Part shown: piece by piece, positions 10,441 through 56,404 of the stretch
Layout of the letters: every line of letters begins with the position of its first letter
Numbering within the stretch: position 1 is the first letter of the stretch
Program-made: the position numbers and the translations under genes
Notes under the pieces: model-generated
Seen by the model: the letters and a program-made list of their open reading frames with translations, nothing else
What the model was told of the DNA's origin: nothing
Databases searched by the model: none
NCBI RefSeq assembly: GCF_000482385.1
Contig: NZ_AXVD01000001.1
Span: forward strand, 1-64,000
DNA length: 64,000 nucleotides
Source of the DNA: Nocardia sp. CNY236
GTDB taxonomy: Bacteria > Actinomycetota > Actinomycetes > Mycobacteriales > Mycobacteriaceae
Direction of reading: 5' to 3'

Positions 10441-10451
10441 GAACACAAACC

Positions 10452-10877: not shown

Positions 10878-10900
10878 GTCGCGTCCACGCCGGCACATAC

Positions 10901-10945
10901 CGACCTCGATCGGCCGGAACATGCTGTTCCGGCCGATCGAGGTCG
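10901..10945. terminator. Perfect 21-bp hairpin, likely bidirectional terminator
   Basis: 10901-10921 and 10925-10945 are exact reverse complements (starting CGACCTCGATCGGCCGG), separated by only three bases. It lies between the convergent ends of the GyrI-like pair (plus) and ino1 (minus). No long T tract follows, which is common for actinobacterial terminators. Short direct repeats of TCCACGACGCAGGTCG lie just beyond (10967 and 10986). Confidence 0.75.
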
Positions 10946-11068
10946 ATTGCCGCTGGGCGATCGATGTCCACGACGCAGGTCGAGATCCACGACGCAGGTC
11001 GTTCGAGATCCACGCCGGACGTCGAACAGAATCCAGGACGCGCGTCCTTCGACAACCTCGACCCGGAG

Positions 11069-12169: not shown

Positions 12170-12719
12170 GGCCGATATTTCCCTCTTTCTGTGGTGCCGT
12201 CTTCGTCGATTGCTCCGCGGCAATCAACTCGTTGAGCCAGCGCACTTCGCGCTCGCTTGATTCGAGCCCGAGCTGATGGAGCTGCCGGGTGTAGCGATCC
12301 AGCGATCCGCTGGCTCGTTTGATCGCCTCCCGAAGCCCCTCTCGGCGCTCCTCGACCTGGCGCCGCCTGCCCTCCAAGATCCGCATCCGCGCCTCGGCGG
12401 GAGTGCGGCTGAAAAAGGCGAGGTGGACGCCGAAGCCGTCGTCGGTGTAGTTCTGCGGTCCGGTGTCGGCGAGCAGCTCGTTGAACCGCTCACGACCGGA
12501 CGGAGTCAGTTGATAGACCCGCCGCGCACGGCGTGTCGCCACACGCACCGGGGTCTCCTCGGCGATCAACCCGTTCGCCTGCATGCGACGCAGAGTCGGG
12601 TAGAGCGAACCGTAGGAGAAGGCACGAAACGGCCCCAGCAAACCGGTCAGCCGCTTGCGCAGCTCATAACCGTGCATCGGCGCTTCGAGGAGCAGCCCGA
12701 GGATTGCCAGTTCGAGCAC
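12162..12719 (-). CDS. PadR-family transcriptional regulator
   Basis: A 185-residue PadR regulator. The winged helix is [23 protein letters not shown], then [18 protein letters not shown] and [12 protein letters not shown]. The C-terminal half is a PadR helical dimerisation region with coiled-coil character ([30 protein letters not shown]). Its end overlaps the ino1 start, so it is probably co-transcribed with ino1 and may control it and itself. A candidate operator lies just upstream. Start is GTG at 12719. Confidence 0.88.
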
Positions 12720-12753
12720 CGGGCTTCACCCCCTGACTGTGTACCGACCTAAC

Positions 12754-12799
12754 CAATAGATGCAATCGCTACTATATCGGAGCGATACATCAATAGATG
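12754..12799. promoter_or_regulatory. Candidate PadR operator/promoter region
   Basis: Between the divergent padR and DUF5318 genes. It holds an inverted repeat ATCGCT (12765-12770)/AGCGAT (12781-12786), flanked outside by ATG and CAT, and a direct repeat CAATAGATG at 12754 and 12791. The ATG...CAT spacing and AT-rich centre (ACTATATCGG) fit a PadR box overlapping a promoter. Binding by the adjacent PadR is inferred. Confidence 0.5.
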
Positions 12800-12974
12800 G
12801 GTGACCACCGATTGCCACGATGAGACCGTCTCCGAGCGCGCCGTAACGACCTGGGCGCGCCGCACCCGCCGGACACGTCACAGCCGGGCACGACACGCTG
12901 ATGCACCACGCAACCGCCTGGTCGATCCGTATAGCCCGGGGCAACCTGATTCCGACACCGCTACTCTGGTTCTC

Positions 12975-13394
12975 GTGCGAATTCAGCGGCAAGTGGTCGA
13001 CTACGCCCTCCGGCGACGGTCCCTGCTGGCCGACGTCTATGCAGGCCGTGTCGATGTCGCCGAGGTGTGTGATGCGAATCCCTATCTCCTACGCGCGGCG
13101 AAGTTTCACGGCCGGGGGAGCGAGGTCACATGCCCAATATGCCGGAAAGAGCAGTTGACCCTCGTATCCTGGGTCTTCGGCGAAGGTCTCGGGCCGATCG
13201 CCGGGTCGGCTCGTACGCCCGAGGAACTCGGGCGCCTCGCCGAGACCCGCGAAGAGTTCTCGGTTCATGTCGTCGAGGTATGCCGGACCTGCAGTTGGAA
13301 TCATCTGGTGCAGTCCTATGTACTCGGCTCGACCCCGGGGCCGCGACGCCGCCGTACCGGAGCACGCCCCAACCGGCGCACCGCCGCCGAATGA
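12975..13394 (+). CDS. DUF5318 family protein
   Basis: A 139-residue conserved actinobacterial protein, orthologous in sequence and position to the gene between padR and ponA1 in mycobacteria. It starts VRIQRQVVDYALRRRSLLADV. It carries CPIC and a later CRTC pair (CPICRKEQL, VEVCRTCSWNHL), which suggest a small zinc-binding domain. The tail is basic. I chose GTG 12975 because family members begin at this Arg-Val/Ile-Gln-Arg-Gln motif; an upstream start at 12801 would add an unlikely Arg-rich extension. Function is unknown. Confidence 0.82.
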   Translation: MRIQRQVVDYALRRRSLLADVYAGRVDVAEVCDANPYLLRAAKFHGRGSEVTCPICRKEQLTLVSWVFGEGLGPIAGSARTPEELGRLAETREEFSVHVVEVCRTCSWNHLVQSYVLGSTPGPRRRRTGARPNRRTAAE

Positions 13395-13505
13395 ACTACC
13401 CGGTCACCCGCCCATCGGGGACTCGCGGAGCTGGTATGCGTGCACCGCGGTGACCACCACTGCCGACAGCCACCTGGAACGCGACAAGTTATGGAGATCT
13501 AGTCC

Positions 13506-16331: not shown

Positions 16332-16342
16332 CCTCGACTGCT

Positions 16343-18082
16343 GTGACCGATCAGCAGGTGGCGGAGCCACGAACGCAACGGTCGCCGGACACCGGCGCAG
16401 CCGAAGCACGGGCGGCGAGGGCGTATTACACCGCCCCCGCCGCACTCGCCCCGGATCTGCGTTCGGCAGACGCCCGAGATCGGCCCAGCCGCAACGATTC
16501 CTTGGCCGCTCAATTGTCCACGGTCATCGGCGGACCAGTTGGCAACCATGCCCTGATCGGGAGATCGCGGTTCTGGACGCCGATACGGGTCCTCCTGGCG
16601 TTCTCGGTCGTGTTTCTCGCGCTGGGTTGGTTCGGCAAAGCGGGCTGCATCCAGCAGACCACGAATGCCGACGGCGCCCTCACCCTCGATTGGAGCAACG
16701 GTCGCCAGTATGTGGCGCTGTGCTATTCGGACACCGTGCCGCTCTATGGCGCGGAACGGCTCGACGAGGGCGCTTTCCCGTACAAGAAACAGTGGACCCA
16801 GCCGACTCCGGACGGCGGCCAAGAGACACGGTATATGGAGTATCCCGTGCTCTCGGGTCTGTACCAGTACCTGGCGATGCGAATCGCCAAGAGCTGGGAC
16901 GCATCGGGGCTGCCCGGCGCACTACAAGTGGTCATCTACTTCAATGTCGTTGCGCTCGGCCTGAGCGTTGCCTGGCTGATCACCGTGTGGGCCTCGGCGT
17001 TGCTGGCAGGGCGCCGCGTCTGGGACGCAGCGCTGATCGCTTGCTCGCCCCTGGTGATCGTGCACGCGTTCACGAATTTCGACACACTCGCAACGGCATT
17101 CGCCGCCGCTGGGCTGCTCGCCTGGGCTCGGCGTCGGCCTGTCCTTGCCGGAGTTCTGCTCGGCCTCGGCGGCGCGGCAAAACTCTATCCTCTGCTGCTA
17201 CTGGGACCCATCATCGTGCTGTGCCTACGCGCCGAAGCACCCCCGGTGGGTCGCTACCACGGGCTACGAATGCGCGACATCGACTGCTGGTCGGCCGCGT
17301 CGACATGGGTGCGTGAGACACCCGCCCGCATCCGGTTCCGCAATGCCCGCCCGCTCGGCGCCGCGACCGTGAGCGTTGCCGCTGCGCTGACGACCTGGGT
17401 GGCGGTGAACCTGCCCATCGCAGTGCTGTATCCGCAGGGATGGCACGAGTTCTTCCGCCTCAATACCACCCGGCCTGCGGACCCGGACTCGCTCTACAAT
17501 GTGATCTCCTCGTTCACCGGCTGGTCCGGCTTCGATGGCGTGCTCGGCCACGGGCAATCACCGGTGATCTTGAACGCCATCTCACTGGCAGTGTTCGCCG
17601 CGGCGTGCGTGCTCATCGGCGGCATCGGCCTCACCGCACCGCGACGACCCCGCCTCGCCCAGTTGTGCTTTCTCGTAGTCGCGGTCTTCCTGCTCACGAA
17701 CAAGGTGTGGAGCCCACAGTATTCACTGTGGCTGGTACCGCTCGCGGTGCTCGCGCTGCCGCACCGTCGCCTGCTGCTGGCCTGGATGACGATCGACGCG
17801 CTGGTCTGGGTGCCACGGATGTTCTACTACCGTGAGTTGCAGGACAGCGGTCAAGGCCTACCCGAGCAATGGTTCACCGCCACGGTGATCCTGCGTGATC
17901 TGGCGGTGGTGGGGCTGTGCGCCCTGGTGGTGCGCCAGATCTATCGACCCGAGCACGACCTGGTGCGTCGCAACCACGTGGACGACCCGAGCGGCGGCAT
18001 CATCGATCATCTGCCGGATCGAACGCCTGCCTGGCTGCCGCCGCTCGTGCGGCCACGCAGAGTGGACGTGCGCAGAACATGA
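16343..18082 (+). CDS. GT87-like membrane mannosyltransferase, copy 1
   Basis: A 579-residue polytopic membrane protein of the GT-C/DUF2029 (GT87) family, which uses polyprenyl-phosphate-mannose as donor. About ten membrane segments are visible from FWTPIRVLLAFSVVFLALGW onward. Typical features are AEP/GAA-type loop KLYPLLLLGPIIVL and VWSPQYSLWLVPLAVLALPHR near the end. The GTG start lies 11 bp after ponA, so they are probably co-transcribed; the order matches Rv0050-Rv0051. It likely modifies cell-envelope glycans; the acceptor is unknown. A paralogue lies at 31477-32865. Confidence 0.85.
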   Translation: MTDQQVAEPRTQRSPDTGAAEARAARAYYTAPAALAPDLRSADARDRPSRNDSLAAQLSTVIGGPVGNHALIGRSRFWTPIRVLLAFSVVFLALGWFGKAGCIQQTTNADGALTLDWSNGRQYVALCYSDTVPLYGAERLDEGAFPYKKQWTQPTPDGGQETRYMEYPVLSGLYQYLAMRIAKSWDASGLPGALQVVIYFNVVALGLSVAWLITVWASALLAGRRVWDAALIACSPLVIVHAFTNFDTLATAFAAAGLLAWARRRPVLAGVLLGLGGAAKLYPLLLLGPIIVLCLRAEAPPVGRYHGLRMRDIDCWSAASTWVRETPARIRFRNARPLGAATVSVAAALTTWVAVNLPIAVLYPQGWHEFFRLNTTRPADPDSLYNVISSFTGWSGFDGVLGHGQSPVILNAISLAVFAAACVLIGGIGLTAPRRPRLAQLCFLVVAVFLLTNKVWSPQYSLWLVPLAVLALPHRRLLLAWMTIDALVWVPRMFYYRELQDSGQGLPEQWFTATVILRDLAVVGLCALVVRQIYRPEHDLVRRNHVDDPSGGIIDHLPDRTPAWLPPLVRPRRVDVRRT

Positions 18083-43831: not shown

Positions 43832-44363
43832 CGAAGCTACCTCTCGACCACATCTCACATACGTCCCAGACAGGCTAAGCCTTACTATGCAGTACTGCAT
43901 CCCGAGTCTCGCCTGTCCGCGCGAGCCGAAGCGCACCATGACCACCCAGTTCGGCGGCGCCCGTCCGAGAAGGCGCCGCGAGCGAGCGGTTGGCGCACTC
44001 GACCTCGCGGCATCATGGTAAACCATTGATTCGCAATACAATTCACAGCGCCGACAGGTCACTGTATCCAGCGGGTCACGCCGACACGAACCGGCATCGG
44101 CGCCGAACGACAACAGCCACAACCACCGGTTCCGTGCAGATTCGGACCCGGTGTCACGACGACGAGACCGGGTCGGTACCGTGCGGCCGAGAAGCACCTC
44201 GGTGCTACCGAACAGTCAGTTGTACAACTACATTCGGCTCGCCGGCGCCCGCACGCCTCGCTACTGCTGTCTCAGACAGAGAGGAGTGCAGGCGCCGGGC
44301 CGGCACCACCACGCACACCGCACGCCGGCAATATGATTGCCAGGGTTCCAACGGGAGGAAGTG
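43832..44363. promoter_or_regulatory. Divergent control region with four palindromes
   Basis: A 532-bp gap between the GntR gene and the 2OG oxygenase gene. No gene is visible. It holds AGGCTAAGCCT (43872-43882), the perfect 14-bp palindrome ATGCAGTACTGCAT (43887-43900), the perfect 12-bp palindrome AGTTGTACAACT (44218-44229) and CTGTCTCAGACAG (44267-44279). The first two are near the GntR start, the last two near the oxygenase start. Confidence 0.55.
43887..43900. promoter_or_regulatory. Perfect 14-bp palindrome, likely GntR operator
   Basis: ATGCAGTACTGCAT is fully self-complementary and lies 56 bp upstream of the GntR ATG. Position and symmetry fit an operator for that dimeric regulator; binding is inferred. 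Confidence 0.55.
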
Positions 44364-45149
44364 ATGTCGACAACCGGGACCGTCCGTGCAACGGCGGCGG
44401 CTCCGCGATGGTTCGCGGACCTGTTCGCCCACCGGCGCTGGGTTCGCCGCAGCCGGCCGTTCCCACACGTGTACGCTCGCGACGTCTTTGTTCCCACGTT
44501 CTATCACCGGTTGACCGCCGAATGGGAACGGGTTCGCCGCGACCGTTCCGACTCGGCCGTCGGGGGCATCGCCGGCGTCGACCGAGTCCCGCTGTCCGCA
44601 CTTCGCGACGGCCCGCTCGCCATCTTCAGCGCCCGAGAATGGCACGACCTGATCGCCGGACTCGGTGGCGTCGAAGCGACCGGCGATATCGAGGGCTCGG
44701 TGTGCCGTCACGGGCCAGAAACTCCTCCCGAGCCGACGCACAACGACCTCGCACCGGCGTGGTTCCCCGGCCCGTCGCCGGGCCCTGGCGACATTCGGCT
44801 GCCGGACGACTCGGTCGACACGCGGACGGGGGAACGCGCTCCCGGCATCGACGCACGGCAGTCCGTGCGCGCCGTCGCGGTCGAGTTCTATCTCGGAAAT
44901 TCCGAATGGGAACCCGGCGACGGAGGCGAAACCGGGCTCTACGACCACCGCGCAGACGCGACATCGCAATCCGCGGCAATCCACATCCCTCCGGTGAACA
45001 ATTCGCTGGTGGTCTTCGAAGTCACTCCACGCAGCTGGCATGCCTTTGCGGGCGCCAACACCAAAGAACGCACCTGCGTGACACTGTGGGTGCATCGCTC
45101 CAGGACGGATGCCGCACAGCGATGGGGAGGAGACACGATTGGCCGGTGA
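44364..45149 (+). CDS. 2-oxoglutarate/Fe(II)-dependent oxygenase-like protein
   Basis: A 261-residue protein with a prolyl-hydroxylase-type double-stranded beta-helix. PFPHVYARDVFVPTFYHRL is at the start. The iron triad is His-Asn-Asp in PTHNDLAPAW and the distal His in VTPRSWHAFAG, with a basic residue in KERTCVTLWV for 2-oxoglutarate. The hallmark AVEFYLGNSEWEPGDGGETGLYD lies between them. It would hydroxylate an unknown substrate. ATG 44364 follows GGGAGGAAG. It overlaps the SDR gene, so the two form an operon. Confidence 0.8.
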   Translation: MSTTGTVRATAAAPRWFADLFAHRRWVRRSRPFPHVYARDVFVPTFYHRLTAEWERVRRDRSDSAVGGIAGVDRVPLSALRDGPLAIFSAREWHDLIAGLGGVEATGDIEGSVCRHGPETPPEPTHNDLAPAWFPGPSPGPGDIRLPDDSVDTRTGERAPGIDARQSVRAVAVEFYLGNSEWEPGDGGETGLYDHRADATSQSAAIHIPPVNNSLVVFEVTPRSWHAFAGANTKERTCVTLWVHRSRTDAAQRWGGDTIGR

Positions 45150-45897
45150 CGATCGCCGCGTCTGTTTGCTCACTGGTGCGAGCGGAACACTCGGCAATAC
45201 CTTCTGCCGTACCTATTACCACACCTATGACATTGTCGCGGTGTGCCATACACGCACGCCCGCCGCACCGTCACAGTTGGAGTGGTTCGTGGACCCGCTG
45301 GCGCCGCAGGAATCGTTACCGGAGAACGATTCGCGGCTGTTCGTGATTCGATCCGATCTGACGCGACCCGGCGAGGTGGAGCGCGTCGTCGACCTCGCAC
45401 TCACCCGATTCGGCCAGGTGGACCTACTGGTGAACAATGCGGCACGGATGCCGCTCCACGACGGTGGAATCGTCGACGGTTCCACCGCACTGGATGACCT
45501 GAATTCCACCTTTGCCCTGAATGTGGAGGTCCCGCTGCGCCTTTCGGCCAGTCTGGCACAGCAATGCTGGCTACACTCCGACGTGGACAATCGTGCACGC
45601 AATCGCAATATCGTCAATGTCTCCTGCATCGCTGCCACGCAGACCCTTCCCGGTCGAACCGTATATTCCGCATCGAAGGCCGCGCTCAACCAGCTGACCC
45701 GTAGCGTCGCGGCAGAGTTCGCCGAATTCGGAATACGCGCAAACGCCATCGCACCCACGATATTTCCCGCAATGGTTTCCACCGAGCAGGTCGCACGCGC
45801 GATCGTCGAGCTCGACACGGGCAGTCGGTCCGGTGCAGTGTTCGGTGTCGGTGTGGATCCGGATCGGGCGCCGACCGGTGCACCCCTGCACTCGTAG
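45139..45897 (+). CDS. Short-chain dehydrogenase/reductase paired with the 2OG oxygenase
   Basis: A 252-residue SDR. The NAD(P)-binding TGASGTLG is near residue 14, LLVNNAAR follows, then the catalytic Ser in NVSCIAATQ and the YSASK pair, with GIRANAIAPTIFP after it. I chose the TTG at 45139 because GGGGAGGAG lies 6 nt upstream and it overlaps the oxygenase stop by 11 bases. An ATG at 45109 deeper inside the oxygenase gene is possible. It may oxidise or reduce the product of the oxygenase. The pair is not one I recognise from a named pathway. Confidence 0.8.
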   Translation: MAGDDRRVCLLTGASGTLGNTFCRTYYHTYDIVAVCHTRTPAAPSQLEWFVDPLAPQESLPENDSRLFVIRSDLTRPGEVERVVDLALTRFGQVDLLVNNAARMPLHDGGIVDGSTALDDLNSTFALNVEVPLRLSASLAQQCWLHSDVDNRARNRNIVNVSCIAATQTLPGRTVYSASKAALNQLTRSVAAEFAEFGIRANAIAPTIFPAMVSTEQVARAIVELDTGSRSGAVFGVGVDPDRAPTGAPLHS

Positions 45898-45977: not shown

Positions 45978-46793
45978 TTACGCCGGTTCGACCCCGGTGG
46001 CGTGCTCGGACAACCGCCACAGTCGCTGCGCGAGATCGGGGTCGGCGGCCTGCGTGTTTCGCAGTCGCTCCAGGTCGAAGCGGTTGAAGTACCGGCCGTT
46101 GATCGTCGAGCCGTCCGCGGTGGTAGCCAGATACACCAACGGCGCGGCCCCCTTGGCGGGACCGGCGAACACCGGACGCGCTATCGGGGAGTTGATGAAT
46201 CTGCCCAGGCCGAGCGGGACATCGTCGTAGAGCCGGCTCGCGGTCGCACCAGGATGAAACGCCGCGGTGACGAGGCCCGTACCTTCGGTACGGCGGGCCA
46301 ACTCTCGCGTGAACAGGATATCGGCCAGCTTGGACGCGGCATAGGCGCGAAAGATCGAATACGGACCGGTGTGTGTGTCGACCGTGTCCAGGTTCAGGTC
46401 GGCCAGGCGATACGCAATGCTCGCGGTATTGATCACCCGCGCCTGTGAGCGTGTCGAGCGTTCGCGCAACAGGTTGGTCAACAGAAACGTCGCCAGGTCG
46501 TTGACCTGGAACGTCAGTTCATTGCCATCGTCGGTGACGATGCGTTCCCACCAGGCGCCGGCGGCGTTGTTGGCCAGCACGTCGACGCGAATATCGATGC
46601 GACCTGACAACCGCCGCCTACCGGACCGTTCCGAAAACGCCCTCGGCCACCTGGCTGGCAGGGTCACGAGCCGGGTGTGTTCTTCGGTTGGCCGTGTCGC
46701 ACCCTCCCTACTGTGTCGTAGCACACAGTAGCGGGGGGTGCAGCAGCGTCGGTCAGCGCTCGGGCAGTGTGTTGGTGTGTATGGTCCACCCAA
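45978..46793 (-). pseudogene. SDR oxidoreductase lacking its N-terminal nucleotide-binding motif
   Basis: From about 46610 down to 45978 the frame encodes the C-terminal two thirds of a retinol dehydrogenase-like SDR: VDVLANNAAG, FQVNDLATFLLTNLL, VINTASIAY and YAASKLADILFTREL with the Tyr/Lys pair. Upstream the frame stays open to 46793, but the sequence is low-complexity and Arg-rich, and the TGxxxGxG coenzyme loop with about 70 residues is missing. It looks like a 5'-truncated gene. A strong palindrome (46708-46731) lies upstream. Not expected to be an active dehydrogenase. Confidence 0.7.
46708..46731. promoter_or_regulatory. Operator-like 9-bp inverted repeat
   Basis: CTACTGTGT (46708-46716) and ACACAGTAG (46723-46731) are perfect arms with a 6-nt spacer, typical for TetR/MarR-type operators. 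It sits upstream of the truncated SDR and of the membrane protein gene on the other strand. No regulator gene is adjacent. Confidence 0.55.
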
Positions 46794-46868
46794 GTCTCCT
46801 GCATACTCCGGAAGGTGAGCGAGGCTGGCCGACGAAGCTCAAACTCGATCCGAAAGTACCTGAACGCC

Positions 46869-49241
46869 ATGCGAGTCGACGGGCGGGAAATCCCGATCAC
46901 GGGAAGTCTGCTACAGCCGCGGATCCGGCGAACCAGTGACATCGTCCGAGTCGTCCTCGCCGCACTGTGGGTCGCGGTCGTGGTTGCGGCGTCCCTGGTC
47001 ACCCGCCCCGAATGGCTCGCTCTGGAACGTTCGGTCTCCAATATCGTCGGTTTTCTGAACCCCGAGCAATCGAACCTGGTGTACTTGGTCTACGGCATGG
47101 CGATTCTGGCGCTGCCGTTCGCGATCTTGATCGAGCTGGTCATCGGCAGACAATGGAAGCTGCTCGCCGGATACGCCGCGGCAGGCATGGTGGCCGGACT
47201 ATTGCTGTCCATCACCGGCACCGGCGTGTCGGCGCCGAAATGGCACCTGCAGGTACCGGACCGGCTGGACACATTTCTGTCCCAGTTCCTGGACGATCCA
47301 CGGTGGATCGCCATGATCGCGGCAATGCTCACCGTATCCAGTCCGTGGCTGCCCACCCGGCCGCGCCGCTGGCTGTGGTTTCTGCTGTTGGCGTTCGCCC
47401 CCATGCACCTGGTGGTCAGCACAGTGGTGCCCGCGCGGGCAATGTTCGGCTTGGCGGTCGGCTGGCTGGTGGGCGCCGTGATCGTGCTCGCGGTCGGCAC
47501 GCCCGCGTTGGAAGTACCGCTCGATGTCGCCGCGCGCGTGCTGGCCCGGCGTGGCCACACGGTCACCGCGTTCACAGTGGTGCACCCCGCTGGACGTGGG
47601 CCGCTACGGCTTGCCGCCGCCATCGACGGTCCACAACCCGAGTTGGTCGTCGAGATGTTCGGGATGAACCAGCGCTCGTTCAACGCTCTGCGGCAACTAT
47701 GGCGCTGGCTCACATTTCGCACCAGTGAGAACGCGGCCATCCACGGGTCCATGCATCGGGCTGTGGAGCATCGTGCGCTGATGGCGATCGCCGTCGGCGA
47801 CCTCGGCCTCGCCAACTGCACCCCGGTCGCAGTCGCCGCACTCTCCCGCGGCTGGACACTGTTTGCATACACCCGACCACACGGCACACCGATCACCGAG
47901 CACACCGACGAGATTCTGCCCGGCGTGTGGCAGGCGCTGGACATGCTGCACCAGAAGCGAATCTCGCACGGGGACCTGCATCCGAGCGACATCCGCATCG
48001 ACGACGGCGATACCGCTTTCGGCGGTTTCGGTAGCGCCGAGTTCGGAGCGTCGGATGCGCAACTGCAGTCGGACATCGCCCAACTGCTCGTGACCACCAC
48101 AGCTGTTTTCGGCAGGGAAGCCGCGGTGCGCGCAGCCATCGACAGTCTCGGCCCATCACAAGTGCTCACTGCTGCGGGGCGACTCACCACCTCCGCCATA
48201 CCCACCGGAATCCGCACGTCGATCCCGAAATGGAAAGCGGCGTTGACCGAGGCCCGCGATGAGGTTCGCACCCAGACCGGAGAAGACCGAATCCCCGCCG
48301 AGCAGATCACCCGATTCTCTCGCAATCGGATCGTCCAACTGGTACTGCTGATCGGACTGGTGTACGTCGCCTACCCGTTCATCAGTGCGGTCCCCACCTT
48401 CTTCACCCAGCTCAGAACCGCGAACTGGTGGTGGGCGCTGCTCGGACTGGCGGTCTCGGCACTGACCTACATCGGTGCGGCGGCCGCATTGTGGGCATGT
48501 GCGTCCGGTGCGGTGAGCTTCCGGAATCTGGTGATCATGCAGGTCGCCAATACTTTCGCCGCGACCACCACCCCGGCGAGGGTCGGTGGGCTCGCACTGA
48601 GTGTGCGCTTTCTCCAGAAAGGAGGACTCGGCACCGTGCGCGCCACCGCGGCAGTGGCGCTGCAACAAGCAGTGCAGGTGATCACGCATATCAGCCTGCT
48701 GCTCGCGTTCAGCGTCGTCGCCGGCACCTCCACCGATCTGTCGCGCTTCGTCCCGGACGCCACGGTTGTCTATCTGCTGGTCGGCGTCGGCGTCGGCATC
48801 ATCGGCACCTTCATGTTCGTACCGAAACTCCGTCGCTGGCTCAACACCGCGGTTCGTCCACAGTTGCAGGAAGTTCTCGGGGAGCTCGCCGATCTGGCGC
48901 GCGATCCCAGACGGTCGGCGGTGATCGTTCTCGGCTGTGCCGCGATCACCCTGGGGTTCGCCGGTGCGCTGTGGGCCAGCGTCGAGGCGTTCGGCGGCGG
49001 CGCCACTTTCGTCACCGTCACCATCGTCACCATGATCGGCGGCACCCTGGCTTCGGCGGCGCCGACCCCCGGGGGTGTCGGTGCAGTCGAAGCCGCGCTG
49101 ATCGGCGGGCTGGCCGCCTTCGGACTACCCGCCGATATCGCCGTGCCGTCGGTGTTGTTGTATCGCGTGCTCACCTGCTGGCTGCCCGTGTTCTGCGGCT
49201 GGGCCACCATGCGTTGGCTGGCCGCGAGAGGTTTGATCTAG
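46869..49241 (+). CDS. Lysylphosphatidylglycerol-synthase-type membrane protein fused to a pseudokinase
   Basis: About 790 residues. The N-terminal part has around six membrane segments (VVLAALWVAVVVAASLV, LPFAILIELVIG and others). A cytoplasmic kinase-like region follows with HGDLHPSDIRIDDG near residue 366; the usual Asn of the HGDxHxxN motif is Asp and the DFG motif is GGFG, so it is probably inactive. The C-terminal half is the YbhN/UPF0104 (LPG synthase transmembrane) fold: TTTPARVGGLALSVRFLQKGG and SAAPTPGGVGAVEAALIGGLAAFG. A role in lipid flipping or envelope sensing is inferred. ATG 46869 is my best guess; a GTG near 46816 is possible. Confidence 0.8.
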   Translation: MRVDGREIPITGSLLQPRIRRTSDIVRVVLAALWVAVVVAASLVTRPEWLALERSVSNIVGFLNPEQSNLVYLVYGMAILALPFAILIELVIGRQWKLLAGYAAAGMVAGLLLSITGTGVSAPKWHLQVPDRLDTFLSQFLDDPRWIAMIAAMLTVSSPWLPTRPRRWLWFLLLAFAPMHLVVSTVVPARAMFGLAVGWLVGAVIVLAVGTPALEVPLDVAARVLARRGHTVTAFTVVHPAGRGPLRLAAAIDGPQPELVVEMFGMNQRSFNALRQLWRWLTFRTSENAAIHGSMHRAVEHRALMAIAVGDLGLANCTPVAVAALSRGWTLFAYTRPHGTPITEHTDEILPGVWQALDMLHQKRISHGDLHPSDIRIDDGDTAFGGFGSAEFGASDAQLQSDIAQLLVTTTAVFGREAAVRAAIDSLGPSQVLTAAGRLTTSAIPTGIRTSIPKWKAALTEARDEVRTQTGEDRIPAEQITRFSRNRIVQLVLLIGLVYVAYPFISAVPTFFTQLRTANWWWALLGLAVSALTYIGAAAALWACASGAVSFRNLVIMQVANTFAATTTPARVGGLALSVRFLQKGGLGTVRATAAVALQQAVQVITHISLLLAFSVVAGTSTDLSRFVPDATVVYLLVGVGVGIIGTFMFVPKLRRWLNTAVRPQLQEVLGELADLARDPRRSAVIVLGCAAITLGFAGALWASVEAFGGGATFVTVTIVTMIGGTLASAAPTPGGVGAVEAALIGGLAAFGLPADIAVPSVLLYRVLTCWLPVFCGWATMRWLAARGLI

Positions 49242-49250
49242 CCCAACGAC

Positions 49251-50234
49251 CTAGGCGGCCGCACGTGCAGCGAGGGCCTCGTAGTCGTGGCCGGCAATGA
49301 GTTCGATGCCTTCGGGTAGTGCGTGCAAGCGATGAATGGTGGCGAAGGCCGCGTCGCGATCGGCGTCGAACAGCTTGCCCGGCATCGGTGCCTTCTCGCG
49401 CAGCAGATCGACCTGCAGCTTGGTCCAGACGGCGTCGCCCACCAGCAGCACCCGACTGCCGTCGTCCACCGCGAGCAGCACCCCGAGGCTGCCCGGTGTG
49501 TGTCCCGCCAGATCCACCAGCACCACCGATCCATCATCGAACAGGTCTTTGCTGCGGGGAAAGGTCAATACCGGTGGGCCGTCCAGCTCGAAGCGGTCGT
49601 ACGCACGGCCACGCAACGGTCCACGAGCCACGCCGACCGGGGCGTGGGTGCCGCCCATCGCCCAGTCGTATTCGACTGCGGGTAGTCGCAGCTCCACCGA
49701 GGACGGCAACTCCACCAAGCCCGAGACGTGATCCCAGTGCAGGTGAGTGGGCACGGCAAAGTCGATCTGCTCACCCGCGAGACCGTACTCGGCGAGCGCT
49801 TCGGCCAACCCGCGTACCGGTTTGTTCGGCGCGACGAGGTACGACACCGGAAATGGCAGCTCGGGCAGTACACGGTCGTGTACTCCGGCGCACAGGGCAG
49901 GATCCACCAGGAAACGCGCCTTCGGGTGCTCGACCACGAACGCGGCCATCATCAGCGGTGTTGCTCCCAGGCTGCGCACCCCCTCGGCTACGAGAGTGGT
50001 CGGCATCGAGATCGTCGCCTGTGCCAGGACGGTGAGCCCGACCGCGACACTCGCAGTGGGGACCGGACGCACATCGAGGTTGGCCAACAGCGTGGTATCG
50101 GCGCGGCGCGGCCGTAGCAAACGGCCCGGCGTTGCCGCCAGGGCGGTGCAGCAGTGGAGCACCGTGGGCAGGATCGGACTGCGCTCGGCGCTGGTGTCCG
50201 GCTTGGTCACCCTGTCACGGTAACCGATGGCCAT
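49251..50234 (-). CDS. Metallo-beta-lactamase-fold hydrolase
   Basis: A 327-residue MBL-fold protein, probably with an N-terminal hydrophobic segment (residues about 60-80). The zinc-binding THLHWDH motif is followed by further ligands in VLVDLAGHTPGSLGVLL (His), LLVGDAVW (Asp) and IAGHDYEAL (His). AHL-lactonase-like and other hydrolases share this arrangement. Substrate unknown. It ends just after the convergent membrane protein gene. Confidence 0.85.
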   Translation of the reverse strand: MAIGYRDRVTKPDTSAERSPILPTVLHCCTALAATPGRLLRPRRADTTLLANLDVRPVPTASVAVGLTVLAQATISMPTTLVAEGVRSLGATPLMMAAFVVEHPKARFLVDPALCAGVHDRVLPELPFPVSYLVAPNKPVRGLAEALAEYGLAGEQIDFAVPTHLHWDHVSGLVELPSSVELRLPAVEYDWAMGGTHAPVGVARGPLRGRAYDRFELDGPPVLTFPRSKDLFDDGSVVLVDLAGHTPGSLGVLLAVDDGSRVLLVGDAVWTKLQVDLLREKAPMPGKLFDADRDAAFATIHRLHALPEGIELIAGHDYEALAARAAA

Positions 50235-50350
50235 GGTTCGCGAAAGAGCTGGCAGGCTGCGGAAATGTGCCTTGCTCCGGGCGGATTCTCGGGCATAATC
50301 GCGGAGGTACCGTGGGTGACGACAGCCGGGCGACGGGGAGGGAGGATGCG

Positions 50351-50521
50351 ATGCGGCCCAGTCTTCGGCGCAGTCGCAAGGAACGCAACAGTCGCAGGGG
50401 AGTGCAGGGCGACGACACGGCGATCGGTCCCCGAGCCCACCCCGCCGAGCACCGTGACGATCCTCGCGCGAGAGCCGCTACACACACCGTGTTCGACGTC
50501 CGCAGTCTCGCGATGCGATGA
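50351..50521 (+). CDS. Possible short leader ORF coupled to the PKS-like gene
   Basis: A 56-codon frame starting with ATG 50351 after a strong GGGAGGGAGG. It ends in TGA overlapping the ATG of the PKS-like gene (ATGA at 50518-50521). The product is very basic at first (RPSLRRSRKERNSRR) and resembles no family. It may serve translational coupling. It could also be only an upstream untranslated region. Confidence 0.35.
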   Translation: MRPSLRRSRKERNSRRGVQGDDTAIGPRAHPAEHRDDPRARAATHTVFDVRSLAMR

Positions 50522-53500
50522 GCGGCGCCCTCACCGACGCCAGCGGCTCGCATCCACCCATTGCCATCATCGGGATCGGCTGCCGACTGCCCGGAGCGGC
50601 GAACACCCACGAATTCTGGCAGCTACTGCTCGCCGGCCGCGACGCCACATCGACGCCACCGCCGGGCCGTCCGGGTACGCGACGTGGTGGCTACCTCGAC
50701 GATGTCGAGTGGTTCGACAACGAGTATTTCGCGATCTCCGATCGCGAAGCTGCCGCCATGGATCCCCGACAGCGTCTAGCGCTCGAGGTCACGATGGACG
50801 CGCTCGACGACGCCGGCATCGGTTATCGCGCAGGCGGATCGAATGCGGCGGTCGTATTCGGTGCGTCCGGGGCCGACCGCGGCACTGCGATGCCGCGGCG
50901 CGTCGGACACGACGCCGCGGACGCGGTCGCCGGTCCCGCACTCGGACTCATCGCCAGCCGAGTGTCCTCGGCACTGGATGTGCGCGGACCCAGTCTGGCG
51001 ATCGATACCACGGGCTCGTCCTCGCTCACCGCAGTGGACCTCGCGGTGCGACTACTTGCCGACGGTACTGCACCCTTCGCCATCGTCGGCGGCGTCGAAC
51101 TGGTTGCGCCGGAAATCATTTCGAACGGCCCCGCCCACCGCGAATTTCCGTCGCCTCGCGGGCGATCGACGCCGTTCGACATCACCGCAGACGGCTGTGC
51201 CCGCAGCGACGGCTGTTCGGTGGTGGTCCTGCAGCCGATCACCGACGCACTCCGCGAGGGCAACCGCGTGTACGCACAGATCATCGCATCGGCTCTCGGA
51301 TCGAACGGACAGCACACCGACGCATCGGTGTCCGATGCCCGGTCGGTGAGTACCGATCCCTCGACGCGCAACGAACGCGCACAGCGCGACATCCTGCGCA
51401 CAGCGTGGTCGCGCGCCGGATTGTCGCCCCGTGCGGCCGGCTACATCGAATGTCATGCCGCCGGTGTGACTGTCGATGATGCAGTGGAGATCGACGCACT
51501 GGCCACTGTCGCGGGTGACGGTAGGGCAGATCCGCTGTGGATCGGGTCGCTGAAGTCCAACATCGGACACTGCGAAGCCGCTGCCGGAATCACCGGCTTG
51601 GTGAAGACCGCGCTGTCCATCCAGCACGGCGTCATCGCGCCGACGATCAACGTGCATCCCGAGCACCCGCTGTTGCGTTCGGGTGCGCGGGGGCTGCGCG
51701 TGCCGACCGAGCGGGTGGATTGGCGTGATGTGCCCGCGTCCGAACGGGTGGCCGGTGTCAGCTCGTTCGGATTCGGTGGCGCCACCGGACACGTCGTACT
51801 GCGCGGAGTAGATCCGTCGCCGCGCGAGCGAACTGCGCGAATTCCGGTACTGCTTGCGTTGACGGCACGCGATGCCCCGCAGGTGCGCGAGCACGCCCAG
51901 CGGGCGGCCGACACGCTGGCTGCCACACGCCTGCCGCTGCACGCATTCGCGGCTGGCGCCGCACGACGGCGGCCCGAGCGCATCCGGGCCGCCGTCTTGG
52001 CACACGATCACGACGACGCGGTACATCTGCTGCGCGAACTCGCCGGTAGTGATAACGAAAGCAGGTGCTCCGAAAGGGTATTCGGCCCACGGTCCGTCCA
52101 CCGCCACGGCGGACTGATGTTTCTGTTCTCCGGTGAGGGCGGCGAGCACGCAACGATGGGGCAGGCGCTGGCGGCCCAGTATCCGGCGTTCGCCGACGGG
52201 CTCGCCGAAGCAACCGAAGCGCTGGTCGCAGCCGGGGGACCGCAGATCTGGGCTCCTGGGCACGGCTTCGTTGCCTCCACGGACGCGCGTACCGGCGAAT
52301 GGGTGCAGCCGGCCCTGTTCGCCTTCCATGTGGCGATGGTGAAGCTGTTGGCCACGTGGGGTATTCGTCCCGATGCCGTTGCCGGGTACGGCGCCGGCGA
52401 GGTCGCCGCGGCAGTCGCCGGCGGCGCGCTGACCATGAGGGACGCGGCACGGGTAGCCGTATCGCGCGACGCAACCCTTGCACACGTGGATGGTCGCGCA
52501 GCGATGGCCGTGCTGGAGGCTGCCCGAGACGACGTCGCGAGACTGGTGGAGCCCATGCACAGGGAGGTGGGCATCGCCGCAGTTCATAGTCCTCGGTCGG
52601 TGGTCGTGTCCGGCACGCCACGCTACGTGGCCGCCCTACTGCGCCGTGCCACCCGCCGCGGGTTGCTCGCTCGCCGATCGGCGAGCGACTTCGCTGCACC
52701 CCACCCGCAGGTCGCGGGGATGCTCCCGGCGTTTGTCGCGGCACTGAGTGAGATCACCCCGCTGGCGCCGCGTGTGCCGGTGTATTCGATGATCCGGCAG
52801 GGCGCCGAGCTCACCACCGCGGCGATGAACCATGACTATTGGGCAGACAACATCACGGCCACCGCGGATTTGGCCGCCACGATCGAGCGCGCCAGCGACG
52901 ACGGTGTCGCCACCGTGCTCGAGATCTCCCCTCGTCCTCAGTTGGTCTCCGCGGTGCGCGAACACCCGAACCTGCGTGAGAGCACGCATTCGGTGACGGT
53001 GCCCGACGACGAGACGGGCGGGTTCCTCACCTGCGTGGCCCAGCTGTACCTGGCCGGGCGGGCGGTCGACTGGTCGGCGCTCGGCCCGTTCCACCCGCCG
53101 TCGCCGCGGCAGTGGCGCAGGCGGAAATTTCCGCTACCGACACCGGGTCTTCCCAGCACGCACGCGGCGGAATCCGCCTTCACCGCAGAGGATTTCACCG
53201 ATCATGTCGTACGCGGCGAGCACACGGTACCCACCGTGTTCTGGTTGCGTAGGCTCCTTCGTCTGGCGCACGAGGCCGCCGCTGCGGCCACACTCGTCGA
53301 CTTCGTCGTCCACGAAAGGACCGGCCCGGACACACTGCCGGAGGTGGTGTATCACCTGGCCGGAGCCGAGAAAAGCGTGCGGGTGGAGGTCACGGGTACC
53401 AGGACGCTGGCTTCGGCCCAGCTCGCCGCTGACCCCACACCCGCGGATATCGTCGCATGGATGCGGGTGGTCGATGCAAACCGGGCCGCCCGACATCACA

Positions 53501-55323
53501 TGCGCATCATCGCCACCAGCGTGTTCTACGAAGAACTCCGCCATCGGCGGCTCGAGTACGGCCCGCGCTTTCGCACATTGCGGGGCATCGCTGCCGGAAC
53601 GGGACGGGCCCTCGGCCTGCTCGACTCCACCGAATTGCACCGCGACGCAACACTGGACGGATGCCTGCAGGTGCTTGCTGCGGCGGTATTCGACGAGCTG
53701 CCCGCGAGATCGATTCCGGTGCCGCTCGGCGTGGACTCCGTATGGTTGTCCAAGGAACCCGACCGCCACGTATTCGAAGTACACGCCTCGATCCGCGAGC
53801 GGGCCGACACCGAACTGGTCGGCGATGTCATCGCGACCGACCAGCACGGAGTGCCCTGCGTCGCCTTTTCCGGGGTACACATTCGTTGTGTCGAGGCCGA
53901 TTTCGCACCCGGAATCGGCGAACGACGTGTGCCCGATACGCCGGCCACACCGATACACCAGGAGACGTGGCAAGCTCGCGAACTCGACTCGGTCGGACTC
54001 GGTGACGCGTTCGAGGACCTGCTGGGACACGCGCTGGTGGTCGGCGCCACCGATCTGGCCGGGCAGCTGGAGCGGGCGCTGGGCGCTACCATTCCGACCG
54101 AGCGAATCGCGCACGACCCCCACGAGGCAGGTGAACTCGTCACCACCATGCTGGCCGGCCGCACGGACGCGGCATTCGCCGTGGTGGTCTGCCCGGGTAG
54201 CACGATCGAGGGCGAGCAGCTGACGACATCCACGGGTCATGTCCTGGCGCTGCTCCAGCAAATATGCGCCATCGAGGCTGTCGCGTCCATGACCCTCGTA
54301 TTGCCGTGGCCCGCTGCCACCACGCAAGCGACACACCTGAAGGGAACAAGTTCCGCGGTCGGCTGGGCGGCGCTCGCGGGTCTGGTGCGCTCGCTACAAC
54401 TCGAGTCGAGCCGGACGATACGTCTGGCCTGGACCGACACCGACCCGGCGAGCGTTCCGCTGCTACGTCGGGTGGTGACCGCTGCGCACGGCACGGTTCC
54501 CGACGAGCTACGCCTGTCCGCCGGCTCGGTCGCCACCCGACGATTCGTGCTCGCTCGGCAACAGGCCCTACCCGGCACGAGCATCGACGAGAACGGCACG
54601 TATGTCGTCACCGGCGGTCTGGGCAGGCTCGGCTCGGTCGCTGTGCGCTGGTTGCTCGACGCCGGCGCCCGAGATGTGATCGTGCTGACGCGTGCGCCCC
54701 GCCCGGTGCCCGCACTACTGGACGGCGTCGAGGACCGCCTCGTCGTGATGCGCTGCGATGCCTCCGATCGGGACGAGTTGACCGCTGCACTCGATGACGT
54801 CCGAGCCTACGGTTGCACCATTCGCGGCGTGGTGCATGCCGCGGACGCACTGGAGGACGGTGCGTTCGATACGGTCACAGCACGCCAGCTCGCCCGGATG
54901 TTCTCGCCCAAACCCATTGCGGCGAGCAACCTGATCGAGCTCACGGCACCCGACGAAACCGACTTCGTCCTGTTGTTCTCCTCGATGAGCGGTACCCTCG
55001 GAGCCCCGGGGCACAGCGCCTACGCGGCGGCCGACGCTGCTGTGGACGCAGTGGCCGGGTGCGATCCCGACAGGCGGATCATCAGCATCGGCTGGGGTCT
55101 GTGGAATCGGGCCGCGGTGGCAACCCATTCCGAACGAGCCGGCGACCAGGCAAACGAACTCACCCGAGGCAAAGCCGTGCTGTCCCGGGCCCTGCACTGC
55201 GAGCAGTCGCGACTGCTGGCGCTGGACCCCGCCCACGCCGCCATGTCGTCGCCGATGGCAACGCGTCTGGCGTCCATGCTGGCGTCCGATGACCACCACG
55301 CGCCGATGCGCGAAGCATCCTGA
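50518..55323 (+). CDS. PKS-like protein: degenerate KS and AT, intact DH and KR, no ACP
   Basis: 1601 residues with type I PKS domain order. KS (about 14-430): IAIIGIGCRLPGA, but the catalytic Cys in DTACSSSL is Gly166 (DTTGSSSL), while H313 (ECHAAG), K346 and H351 (KSNIGH) remain. AT (about 530-860): the GHSxGE serine is Gly625 (GYGAGE) and GQG is GEG. DH (about 885-1130): His896 in HVVRGEHTVP, YGPRF, Asp1047/Gln1051 in LDGCLQ. KR (about 1358-1545): TGGLGRLG, K1465, SSMSG and Tyr1502. The protein ends soon after the KR with no ACP GxDSL motif. It cannot extend a chain alone; it could ketoreduce and dehydrate a substrate carried by another ACP or CoA. Confidence 0.9.
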   Translation: MSGALTDASGSHPPIAIIGIGCRLPGAANTHEFWQLLLAGRDATSTPPPGRPGTRRGGYLDDVEWFDNEYFAISDREAAAMDPRQRLALEVTMDALDDAGIGYRAGGSNAAVVFGASGADRGTAMPRRVGHDAADAVAGPALGLIASRVSSALDVRGPSLAIDTTGSSSLTAVDLAVRLLADGTAPFAIVGGVELVAPEIISNGPAHREFPSPRGRSTPFDITADGCARSDGCSVVVLQPITDALREGNRVYAQIIASALGSNGQHTDASVSDARSVSTDPSTRNERAQRDILRTAWSRAGLSPRAAGYIECHAAGVTVDDAVEIDALATVAGDGRADPLWIGSLKSNIGHCEAAAGITGLVKTALSIQHGVIAPTINVHPEHPLLRSGARGLRVPTERVDWRDVPASERVAGVSSFGFGGATGHVVLRGVDPSPRERTARIPVLLALTARDAPQVREHAQRAADTLAATRLPLHAFAAGAARRRPERIRAAVLAHDHDDAVHLLRELAGSDNESRCSERVFGPRSVHRHGGLMFLFSGEGGEHATMGQALAAQYPAFADGLAEATEALVAAGGPQIWAPGHGFVASTDARTGEWVQPALFAFHVAMVKLLATWGIRPDAVAGYGAGEVAAAVAGGALTMRDAARVAVSRDATLAHVDGRAAMAVLEAARDDVARLVEPMHREVGIAAVHSPRSVVVSGTPRYVAALLRRATRRGLLARRSASDFAAPHPQVAGMLPAFVAALSEITPLAPRVPVYSMIRQGAELTTAAMNHDYWADNITATADLAATIERASDDGVATVLEISPRPQLVSAVREHPNLRESTHSVTVPDDETGGFLTCVAQLYLAGRAVDWSALGPFHPPSPRQWRRRKFPLPTPGLPSTHAAESAFTAEDFTDHVVRGEHTVPTVFWLRRLLRLAHEAAAAATLVDFVVHERTGPDTLPEVVYHLAGAEKSVRVEVTGTRTLASAQLAADPTPADIVAWMRVVDANRAARHHMRIIATSVFYEELRHRRLEYGPRFRTLRGIAAGTGRALGLLDSTELHRDATLDGCLQVLAAAVFDELPARSIPVPLGVDSVWLSKEPDRHVFEVHASIRERADTELVGDVIATDQHGVPCVAFSGVHIRCVEADFAPGIGERRVPDTPATPIHQETWQARELDSVGLGDAFEDLLGHALVVGATDLAGQLERALGATIPTERIAHDPHEAGELVTTMLAGRTDAAFAVVVCPGSTIEGEQLTTSTGHVLALLQQICAIEAVASMTLVLPWPAATTQATHLKGTSSAVGWAALAGLVRSLQLESSRTIRLAWTDTDPASVPLLRRVVTAAHGTVPDELRLSAGSVATRRFVLARQQALPGTSIDENGTYVVTGGLGRLGSVAVRWLLDAGARDVIVLTRAPRPVPALLDGVEDRLVVMRCDASDRDELTAALDDVRAYGCTIRGVVHAADALEDGAFDTVTARQLARMFSPKPIAASNLIELTAPDETDFVLLFSSMSGTLGAPGHSAYAAADAAVDAVAGCDPDRRIISIGWGLWNRAAVATHSERAGDQANELTRGKAVLSRALHCEQSRLLALDPAHAAMSSPMATRLASMLASDDHHAPMREAS

Positions 55324-55343
55324 CCCCACGCCCTACGGGCAGC

Positions 55344-55748
55344 TCAGTGCTCGGTGCGGCCCAAGAGGCGATCGATGTCGCGGCGCTCACGCTTGGTGGG
55401 CCGCCCCGCTCCCCGATCTCGGCGCGGCATGCTCGCCTGGATTTCTTGTGAGGGAGGCGGCGGACTGCGATCGATCATGCATTGTGCAGCGATCGGGGCA
55501 CCGACACGTTTGGTGATGATTCGTTCCACTATGACGATGCGCTCGACGCCGCCTGCACGAATACGCACCTCGTCACCGGGACGCACGGCCTGAGCGGGCT
55601 TGGCTGTCGAGCCGTTGACTCGAACGTGCCCCCCGCGGCAGGCTTCGGCAGCAGCGGATCGCGTCTTGAACAGCCGCACCGCCCACGTCCATGAATCGAC
55701 ACGGGCCTGGTTGTCGGTGCTGCGAACAGGGGATCCAGCGCGAGCCAC
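55344..55748 (-). CDS. S4-domain RNA-binding protein (Hsp15-like)
   Basis: A 134-residue protein with an S4 domain at residues about 18-65: VDSWTWAVRLFKTRSAAAEACRGGHVRVNGSTAKPAQAVRPGDEVRIRAG. A basic tail follows (GRPTKRERRDIDRLLGR). Hsp15 relatives bind stalled 50S-nascent chain complexes. GTG 55748 gives the full domain and lies 2 bp after the stop of the NlpC/P60 gene, so they may be co-transcribed. Confidence 0.85.
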   Translation of the reverse strand: MARAGSPVRSTDNQARVDSWTWAVRLFKTRSAAAEACRGGHVRVNGSTAKPAQAVRPGDEVRIRAGGVERIVIVERIITKRVGAPIAAQCMIDRSPPPPSQEIQASMPRRDRGAGRPTKRERRDIDRLLGRTEH

Positions 55749-55750
55749 CC

Positions 55751-56404
55751 CTAGAGAATACGGCGTGCGGTGACCACCATGTCGGGACGCAGGGACGTGT
55801 AGGTCACCGGCTGCCCCGCCTGGACCGCGTTCAGCAAGAGGTTGTCGCCCGCATAGATGCCCACATGGCCGCCGCCGTTGGTGATGACGATGTCCCCGGG
55901 CGCCATGTCGCGGTATGCCACCGGCGCACCGACGTGGGACTGCTCGAAGCTGGTGCGAGGCAGTTCGATGCCTGCCTGTCGGAAAGCCCATTGGACCAGT
56001 CCGGAACAATCGAACGAGACGGGACCGGCTGCACCCCAGGAATACTGGGCACCGATCTTGGTCCTGGCCGCCTCCAGAGCAACGTCACCGGCGGTGCTGG
56101 GTTCGCCGAACAGCCCCGGTAGAAGCCCGAGAGCCTGTGGCGCCTCCGGCAACCCGAGGTCCTGTGGTACCGCCGGCGGGGGCGCACCGAGCGCTTGCTG
56201 GATCTGGTCGTTGAGTTGCTCGACCGCGGGTTCGAATTCTTCGGGGACCGGGACTTCGAAGTCGCCGATGCCCGGGACGCTGATGGTCGCGGCCATAGCC
56301 GGGATCGCAGGCATCGCGCCGGTCGCGGCCACCGCACCCATGACGAGCGCGCCCTTGACGGAATTCGGAACCCGAGAATCCCGCTGCAAGCTGTGTTTAC
56401 CCAC
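55751..56404 (-). CDS. Secreted NlpC/P60 peptidoglycan endopeptidase
   Basis: A 217-residue exported cell-wall hydrolase. The signal peptide is VKGALVMGAVAATGAMPAIPAMA. The NlpC/P60 domain covers the last 110 residues, with catalytic Cys in SFDCSGLVQWAF, His in GGGHVGIYAGDN and the third polar residue nearby. It would cleave peptide stems, like RipA/RipB-type enzymes. GTG 56404 opens the signal peptide and has GGAG upstream. An ATG at 56569 would put about 55 extra residues before the signal, which is unlikely. Confidence 0.88.
   Translation of the reverse strand: MGKHSLQRDSRVPNSVKGALVMGAVAATGAMPAIPAMAATISVPGIGDFEVPVPEEFEPAVEQLNDQIQQALGAPPPAVPQDLGLPEAPQALGLLPGLFGEPSTAGDVALEAARTKIGAQYSWGAAGPVSFDCSGLVQWAFRQAGIELPRTSFEQSHVGAPVAYRDMAPGDIVITNGGGHVGIYAGDNLLLNAVQAGQPVTYTSLRPDMVVTARRIL

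Follow-up and report, generated by a model that had tools for sequence, protein, structure and literature searches.

The window analysed here, positions 1 to 64,000 (64,000 nucleotides) of contig NZ_AXVD01000001.1 from Nocardia sp. CNY236, carries a polyketide synthase (PKS) gene whose frame is uninterrupted over 1601 codons from an ATG start; the remaining five frames of the same stretch carry 10–30 stops. A Pfam search of the protein gave matches to ketosynthase (KS; PF00109/PF02801), acyltransferase (AT; PF00698), dehydratase (DH; PS-DH, PF14765) and ketoreductase (KR; PF08659) families. It found no PP-binding domain, in agreement with an earlier sequence-only reading, which had described a PKS-like protein with dead KS and AT, intact DH and KR, and no acyl carrier protein (ACP). 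The features of the locus are collected in Table 1.

Table 1 Features of the PKS locus, in positions of the window (aa, residues of the PKS; psiKR, structural half of the KR; FAAL, fatty-acyl-AMP ligase; zero, dead domain; KS domain boundaries are our own setting)
Feature	Positions	Strand	Basis or remarks
Metallo-beta-lactamase-fold gene	49251..50234	-	Next to the PKS and divergent from it in many relatives
ACP1 remnant	50323..50521	+	DNA alignment; TGA overlaps PKS ATG
Synthase-dead PKS, 1601 aa, KS0-AT0-DH-psiKR-KR, no ACP	50518..55323	+	Open reading frame, Pfam, motifs, codons
Ketosynthase domain, aa 13-430	50554..51807	+	Cys to Gly166, codon 51013-51015; both His present
Acyltransferase domain, aa 531-830	52108..53007	+	GYGAGE versus orthologue GHSLGE; Tyr624-Gly625, codons 52387-52392
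Dehydratase domain, aa 880-1130	53155..53907	+	H896, D1047, Q1051 and YGP motif present
psiKR, ketoreductase structural half, aa 1140-1350	53935..54567	+	Branch dN/dS; fold match of psiKR-KR to 2fr1
Ketoreductase catalytic half, aa 1355-1535	54580..55122	+	TGGLGRLG, K1465, S1489, Y1502; Asp1506
Site of the orthologues' C-terminal ACP and FAAL gene	55324..55343		20 bases between PKS stop and next frame in the window

The catalytic residues of KS, AT, DH and KR domains lie in well-known motifs, which begin in the window protein at residues 163 (DTTGSSSL), 623 (GYGAGE), 896 (HVVRGEHTVP), 1047 (DGCLQ), 1365 (TGGLGRLG) and 1500 (SAYAAAD). Motif positions and codons bore out the substitutions read earlier in KS and AT as well as the DH residues: Gly166 (GGC) stands in place of the KS Cys, Tyr624-Gly625 (TAC, GGC) in place of the His-Ser of the AT motif GHSxG, and the DH keeps its catalytic His896 (CAT) and Asp1047 (GAC), together with Gln1051 (CAG). 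The Cys is the sole catalytic residue lost from the KS Cys-His-His triad, both His being present in CHAAGV and GHCEAAAG. In the AT, the nucleophile is gone and the second His is shifted by one (Pro728 and His729, against His728 in all 52 complete copies described below), while Gln597 and Arg650 are retained. The KR motifs, previously called complete, are so only in part: the NADP motif TGGLGRLG, Lys1465 (AAA), Ser1489 (TCG) and Tyr1502 (TAC) are present, but the Asn of the tetrad, found in 51 of 52 complete syntenic synthases, is Asp1506 (GAC).

Loading-module ketosynthases of the KSQ type also have their Cys replaced with the fold kept. The window KS has Gly166 rather than the Gln of a KSQ decarboxylase, as had been noted, and is joined to a dead AT with no ACP. 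Within the window, the KS N-terminal family is matched by this PKS alone, so the earlier statement that the window holds no other PKS gene stands as far as the window goes; across the whole genome there are 35 such matches, partly to enzymes of the fatty acid synthase (FAS) type or to fragments, and therefore further PKS genes lie outside it.

Homologue searches yielded 31 Nocardia loci, and matches at E ≤ 1e-150 came from 18 of 60 relative genomes, all within one of the 22 genera. The nearest orthologues (64–66% identity) are complete, with KS DSACSSSL, AT GHSLGE or GHSSGE, and about 100 extra C-terminal residues that form an ACP (ACP2). Complete orthologues, such as that of N. abscessus (locus L036; L numbers denote loci and G numbers genomes), share with the window the locus, the gene order, about 64% identity and the domains through KR. 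Unlike the window, they have the KS Cys, the AT Ser, the C-terminal ACP, a free-standing ACP1 and the FAAL, so that the complete system is FAAL + ACP1 + KS-AT-DH-KR-ACP2. The ACP1 gene lies directly upstream, encodes about 90–100 residues and ends in a TGA that overlaps the PKS ATG; in L036 the FAAL start overlaps the PKS stop. A working type I PKS module has a KS Cys, an AT Ser and an ACP in cis or adjacent, and none of these was found at the window locus.

The sequence-only reading had suggested looking for a partner ACP or ligase near orthologues: ACP1, the C-terminal ACP and the FAAL were all found there and are gone from the window, losses that extend what had been seen from the window itself. 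Upstream, ACP1 has been gutted. Its 5′ part is almost the same as in the orthologues and its final bases, CTCGCGATGCGATGAGC, are identical (matched by direct reading, MAFFT having placed them elsewhere), but the ACP core between them is gone, and no Pfam match was found for 50348-50518. Downstream, neither the C-terminal ACP nor the FAAL was found at the window locus. Profiles of ACP1 and the C-terminal ACP, searched against all six frames of the window, gave no convincing match, the best scores being E 0.023, in a frame antisense to an NlpC/P60 gene, and E 0.28, in the ACP1 remnant. Relocation of the FAAL elsewhere in the genome was rejected, the best matches being 38–47% identical, at the level of paralogues, and two of them pieces at contig edges. 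Gene order around the PKS is conserved, and most flanking genes of the window share 76–93% identity with those of the nearest clade, the NlpC/P60 gene 63–87%; the gene at 55344-56009 appears in our records as ‘S4’, a label of our own.

We located the same locus across the genus through a neighbouring AAA gene, which had a match in 147 of 150 Nocardia genomes. Four of the 147 matches were not used, lying near a contig end or in a split locus (G102, G125, G161 and G035), and 132 fetched stretches, the window and nine earlier loci made up a set of 142. Classed by synteny, 52 loci have a complete synthase, 20 an ACP-less copy near full length (the window included), 44 a reduced copy and 23 none, with three unclassified. 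‘Reduced’ means no DH match above 150 bits, a rule of ours by which L164, with a weak ACP match, also landed in that class. Reduced copies have stop-to-stop frames of 647 to 1828 residues, 33 of the 44 within 647–992. Several consist of AT and the N-terminal half of KR alone (KR 1-104 of 180 in L161, 1-96 in L163 and 2-93 in L174); others, for example L184 (KR 1-178), retain the whole KR. No gene fragments were found in the 23 loci without a copy, at E 1e-4 with five queries, and five of these rows are weak assignments (L119 and L147 are short contigs; in L167, L170 and L178 the FAAL lies at the stretch edge and the PKS may lie beyond). When the reduced copy of L161 was searched against 121 genomes from the order, matches at E ≤ 1e-45 came from three genomes, all of the window's genus and including the window's own, that is, in one of the 49 genera searched.

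The three classes differ sharply in which residues they keep (counts are given for complete, near-full-length ACP-less and reduced copies, n = 52, 20 and 44). The KS Cys is kept in 52, 4 and 1, the AT Ser in 52, 2 and 0, the DH His in 52, 19 and 0, the KR Lys in 52, 18 and 0 and the KR Tyr in 52, 9 and 1. Against these losses, the KR GGLG motif is kept in 52, 19 and 42 and the AT Arg650 in 52, 13 and 41; the AT Gln and His persist in 32 and 31 of the 44 reduced copies. Where other sites are lost, the replacements scatter (KS Cys to R, Q, G, D, S, A, Y or P; KR Tyr to D, E, S, I, T and others). The AT Ser is replaced exclusively by Gly, in 18 near-full-length and all 44 reduced copies, that is, in all 62 altered copies among the 64 that are not complete. 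The Ser codons are AGC or AGT, and on a tree of the flanking genes the AT residue changes nine times, seven of them forced by well-supported (starred) branches; under a simple mutation model (kappa 1 to 4), the chance that seven of seven changes give Gly is 4e-6 to 1e-3. Glycine suits a nucleophile elbow. This fit is a likely reason for the uniform Gly and in itself implies selection for a folded AT.

Phylogenies place these changes in separate lineages. A protein tree was built from AT-DH-KR after the catalytic columns had been taken out; in it the window copy grouped with 13 complete copies (support 100/100), and three other groups of ACP-less copies lay elsewhere. Partial or frameshifted copies (L037, L054 and L066) were excluded from this tree, and L057, also without a C-terminal ACP, was outside the dead set. 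In the flank tree, a short-search tree of three flanking genes from which L064, L066 and L070 were left out (two because their stretch does not include the AAA gene, one as a presumed duplicate of the complete L035), the smallest well-supported set around the window holds 15 other rows, all complete synthases; the notion of a distinct ACP-less family to which the window protein would belong was thereby overturned. On the same tree the complete/not-complete split requires 11 changes, at least seven of them forced by starred branches. A single origin was rejected when all ten dead copies of the protein tree were held together (a cost of 179 log units; approximately unbiased (AU) test p 6.5e-75), and likewise for the copies without ACP1, ACP2 and FAAL, namely the window, L055 (N. 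panacis), L058 (N. higoensis) and L069 (168 log units; AU p 4.7e-6). The same orthologous gene has been converted several times independently across Nocardia.

Two copies are apparently transitional. L100 (3540-8984) has lost the C-terminal ACP and kept the KS Cys and AT Ser, with ACP1 and FAAL not seen in the stretch; L104 (6299-11371) has likewise lost the C-terminal ACP and kept both nucleophiles, together with ACP1, its FAAL not being seen in the stretch. Because such copies exist, carrier loss could come first.

The converted copies compared in pairs remain under purifying selection. Core dN/dS (omega) was 0.09–0.34 in all 27 pairs compared (22 reduced, 5 near-full-length dead), values that are rough since dS was saturated (above 2) in several pairs, which are also not independent; setting omega = 1 cost 15 to 270 log units in every pair. 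KR was under stronger constraint than AT in 23 of the 27, and in the dead pair L046/L052 the AT omega was 0.031. For the window branch we ran each domain three times, with a fourth row that was either L043 (itself ACP-less) or one of the complete copies L056 and L035. KS and AT were relaxed (omega 0.19–0.20 versus a background of 0.06–0.08, and 0.25–0.26 versus 0.05–0.07; twice the log-likelihood difference (2dlnL) 12.3 to 22.6). DH was unchanged (0.13–0.14 versus 0.13–0.17), psiKR had 0.11–0.18 versus 0.13–0.19, and KR had 0.14–0.16 versus 0.05–0.07, more clearly with the complete fourth rows (2dlnL 6.3 and 7.1) than with L043 (4.1), while the KS, AT and DH results held throughout. Omega = 1 was rejected in all five window domains with each of the three outgroups (2dlnL 10.4 to 45.3). 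Simple domain rate ratios, taken with no baseline (KS 5.1×, AT 3.6×, KR 2.8×, DH 1.9×, linker 1.3×), were set aside as exaggerating the shift, since the window sits on a branch that is itself long (0.21 in the flank tree). The window copy thus evolves neither neutrally nor as a normal synthase would: constraint is loosened in KS and AT, to a moderate degree in KR, and not in DH. Lost catalytic residues under purifying selection, the mark of a pseudoenzyme, are found in KS and AT only; KR and DH may be active.

A predicted model of residues 871-1601 (pLDDT 79.5, pTM 0.61) gives a plausible fold. Its psiKR-KR part matched DEBS KR1 (2fr1; Z 34.7, rmsd 3.0, 421 aligned residues), and the modelled stretch matched the modifying region of a MAS-like PKS (5bp4) loosely (Z 33.8, rmsd 14.8 over 653 residues). 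The model says nothing on activity, 12 of the 20 aligned rows being complete orthologues. Mycobacterial PKSs are the best relatives at family level (NF045894, 692 bits; Pks13 NF040607, 469 bits; Pks2 NF041183, 464 bits), with scores far under the curated cut-offs (1740, 2100 and 2400 bits, respectively), and MAS (9d2y) scored 436 bits against the window PKS. Compared with these mycobacterial enzymes the window protein has a dead KS and AT and no ACP; MAS also has an enoylreductase (ER), according to the entry title of 5bp4, and no ER family match was found in the window PKS by Pfam.

We favour, with somewhat more belief than doubt, the reading that a formerly complete one-module PKS has lost its carriers, ligase and nucleophiles, has been converted repeatedly in this way, and is retained for a non-catalytic role; the gutted PKS probably has a new job in the window and in many relatives. 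With the ACP sites, the loading ligase and the KS and AT nucleophiles gone, the window protein could no longer build a chain at its locus. A carrier-less but active AT would merely hydrolyse malonyl-CoA, and such waste would favour Ser to Gly each time. The protein would then be kept for ligand binding or scaffolding through the AT pocket and the NADP-binding fold, its usefulness depending on the fold of the AT and on the KR half that binds NADP. The conversions would form a series, from ACP-less copies of near full length to reduced copies that keep mainly AT (Ser to Gly) and the NADP-binding KR half, and the window copy would stand early in it, possibly still with KR and DH activity. KR and DH catalysis would not be what is generally retained, because the reduced copies lose both and purifying selection persists. 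The genus-wide pattern favours, as far as sequences can tell, a non-catalytic, ligand-binding protein.

Several observations weigh against this reading. The unchanged DH constraint and the presence of most DH and KR catalytic residues in the window copy would suit an enzyme just as well. Constraint is weaker in converted copies than in complete ones (omega 0.09–0.34 versus 0.08–0.15 in seven complete pairs, both ranges being rough), KS in the pair L039/L042 reached 0.53 (with weak support), and the AT Arg is kept in just 13 of the 20 near-full-length copies. The uniform Gly may show selection for folding and not necessarily a new ligand. The groups put to the AU test were named once the tree had been seen, under a simple model and with some long branches, and the change counts depend on the short search behind the flank tree. 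Finally, the acyl-CoA ligase and nitronate-monooxygenase-like genes kept nearby by most relatives are absent in the window; short of these two neighbours, the window copy may be nearer to loss.

The proposal made in the sequence-only reading, a trans-acting ketoreductase-dehydratase that keeps KS-AT as a scaffold and whose KR and DH would process a beta-ketoacyl chain on an ACP or CoA supplied by another system of the genome, we regard as unlikely overall and as a serious rival for the window copy itself. It gains from the dead KS and AT and the missing ACP, from the DH His, Asp and Gln and the KR Lys, Ser and Tyr still in place, from a DH omega at background with all three outgroups next to a clearly relaxed KS and AT, from the match of the predicted psiKR-KR part to DEBS KR1 and from the other PKS and FAS genes of the genome (some of the 35 KS-family matches being fragments). 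Asp1506 at the tetrad Asn speaks against it, as do the moderate relaxation of KR, the lack of any partner ACP found at the locus, and the converted relatives that lose the KR Tyr and any recognisable DH in pairs still under selection. The rival is weakened because KR relaxation became clearer with the complete outgroups.

A more specific form of the preferred non-catalytic reading can be offered only tentatively, and we think it unlikely: the protein would bind metabolites, with (methyl)malonyl-CoA in the non-reactive Ser-to-Gly AT pocket and NADP(H) bound by the KR's Rossmann half, a form reached by repeated independent conversion. If true, it would report on, or scaffold in response to, two inputs of fatty-acid synthesis, and the window copy would be a young member with DH and KR still present.

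That the gene is a slowly decaying pseudogene, its frame open by chance, seems improbable, despite the loss of carrier sites, FAAL, KS Cys and AT Ser, the relaxation of KS, AT and, less so, KR on the window branch, the 23 of 142 loci with no copy and no fragments found there, and one N. brasiliensis copy split into two frames. A pseudogene would show omega near 1 or a broken frame, and the window copy has neither; omega = 1 was rejected in each of its domains and in all 27 pairs, the other frames of the stretch are rich in stops, and across copies the AT Gly is uniform and the NADP motif retained. The earlier reading held that disrupted DH or KR motifs in close relatives would indicate a pseudogene. 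In independently stripped relatives KR Tyr and Lys and then DH are lost, while purifying selection persists in the tested pairs. The split copy belongs to N. brasiliensis IFM 10847 (L054, 9866-13969 and 12798-14207; also L103), an ACP-less copy. Either the frameshift is genuine or the sequence is in error, and related copies from N. brasiliensis and N. vulneris have an uninterrupted frame.

Orthologues with Cys and Ser had likewise been foreseen as a sign of sequence error or decay, and the 13 sister copies have both, decay being nonetheless disfavoured by dN/dS; error in sequencing or assembly at the active-site codons, for which the Cys and Ser of close orthologues might speak, has next to no chance and is refuted by the pattern of changes, given only 64–66% identity to those orthologues, the coincidence of several catalytic changes with two ACP losses, and the same AT residue at 61 other loci.

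In L036 the complete locus (PKS 9645-15064 and FAAL 15064-16923) has an acyl-CoA ligase and a nitronate-monooxygenase-like gene nearby, and it looks like an uncharacterised lipid pathway. This ligase and the nitronate-monooxygenase-like gene (traced through an antisense frame) are found with most loci of the complete, dead and reduced kinds; of the 18 loci without a PKS copy in which the flanking gene for a lysylphosphatidylglycerol-synthase-like transmembrane protein is covered, 15 lack them. We considered them as conserved partners and claim no functional link: the rows lacking them are mainly one clade, three loci without a PKS copy keep both, and the window has neither. Relocation of the ligase elsewhere in the window's genome was rejected (best match 40%); the frame L036:7541-8479 (minus strand) had a best match of 31% in that genome, which says little about the monooxygenase gene itself, the query being the antisense of its frame.

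Near the window locus, as in many relatives, lies a gene (46767-49241) whose large product has a transmembrane region like that of lysylphosphatidylglycerol synthase, together with a weak match to protein kinases. Overlapping frames for a 2OG-Fe(II) oxygenase and a short-chain dehydrogenase/reductase (44337-45894) form a neighbouring pair in several relatives. Elsewhere in another Nocardia genome, a PKS with a frame of 3561 residues (L064:6936-17803) has an overlapping free-standing ACP frame directly upstream. At 5.3 Mb the window's genome is smaller than most of those sampled from Nocardia (6–10 Mb), and its branch in the flank tree is long. The ACPs, the FAAL and the ligase may have been lost through genome reduction.

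Single dead domains in PKSs are familiar, and dead domains of FAS and PKS enzymes are kept for structure or regulation, as in the chain-length factor and the pseudo-KR and pseudo-methyltransferase of animal FAS. Those are single domains within working complexes; here a whole synthase has been converted repeatedly, with no working partner at the window locus. In the open-licence literature we found no description of recurrent whole-synthase conversion with a uniform AT substitution under selection. A survey of Nocardia PKS clusters (PMC4035055) does not mention such a gutted PKS in the parts covered, and neither do the portions consulted of PMC12153302 and PMC11837247.

Such loci, if listed as PKS clusters, may be incapable of making a product. 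Together they provide a series, replicated in nature, that leads from the complete enzyme to the reduced shell and lets one ask directly what a dead megasynthase is good for, one that selection has retained in a large share of the genus Nocardia.

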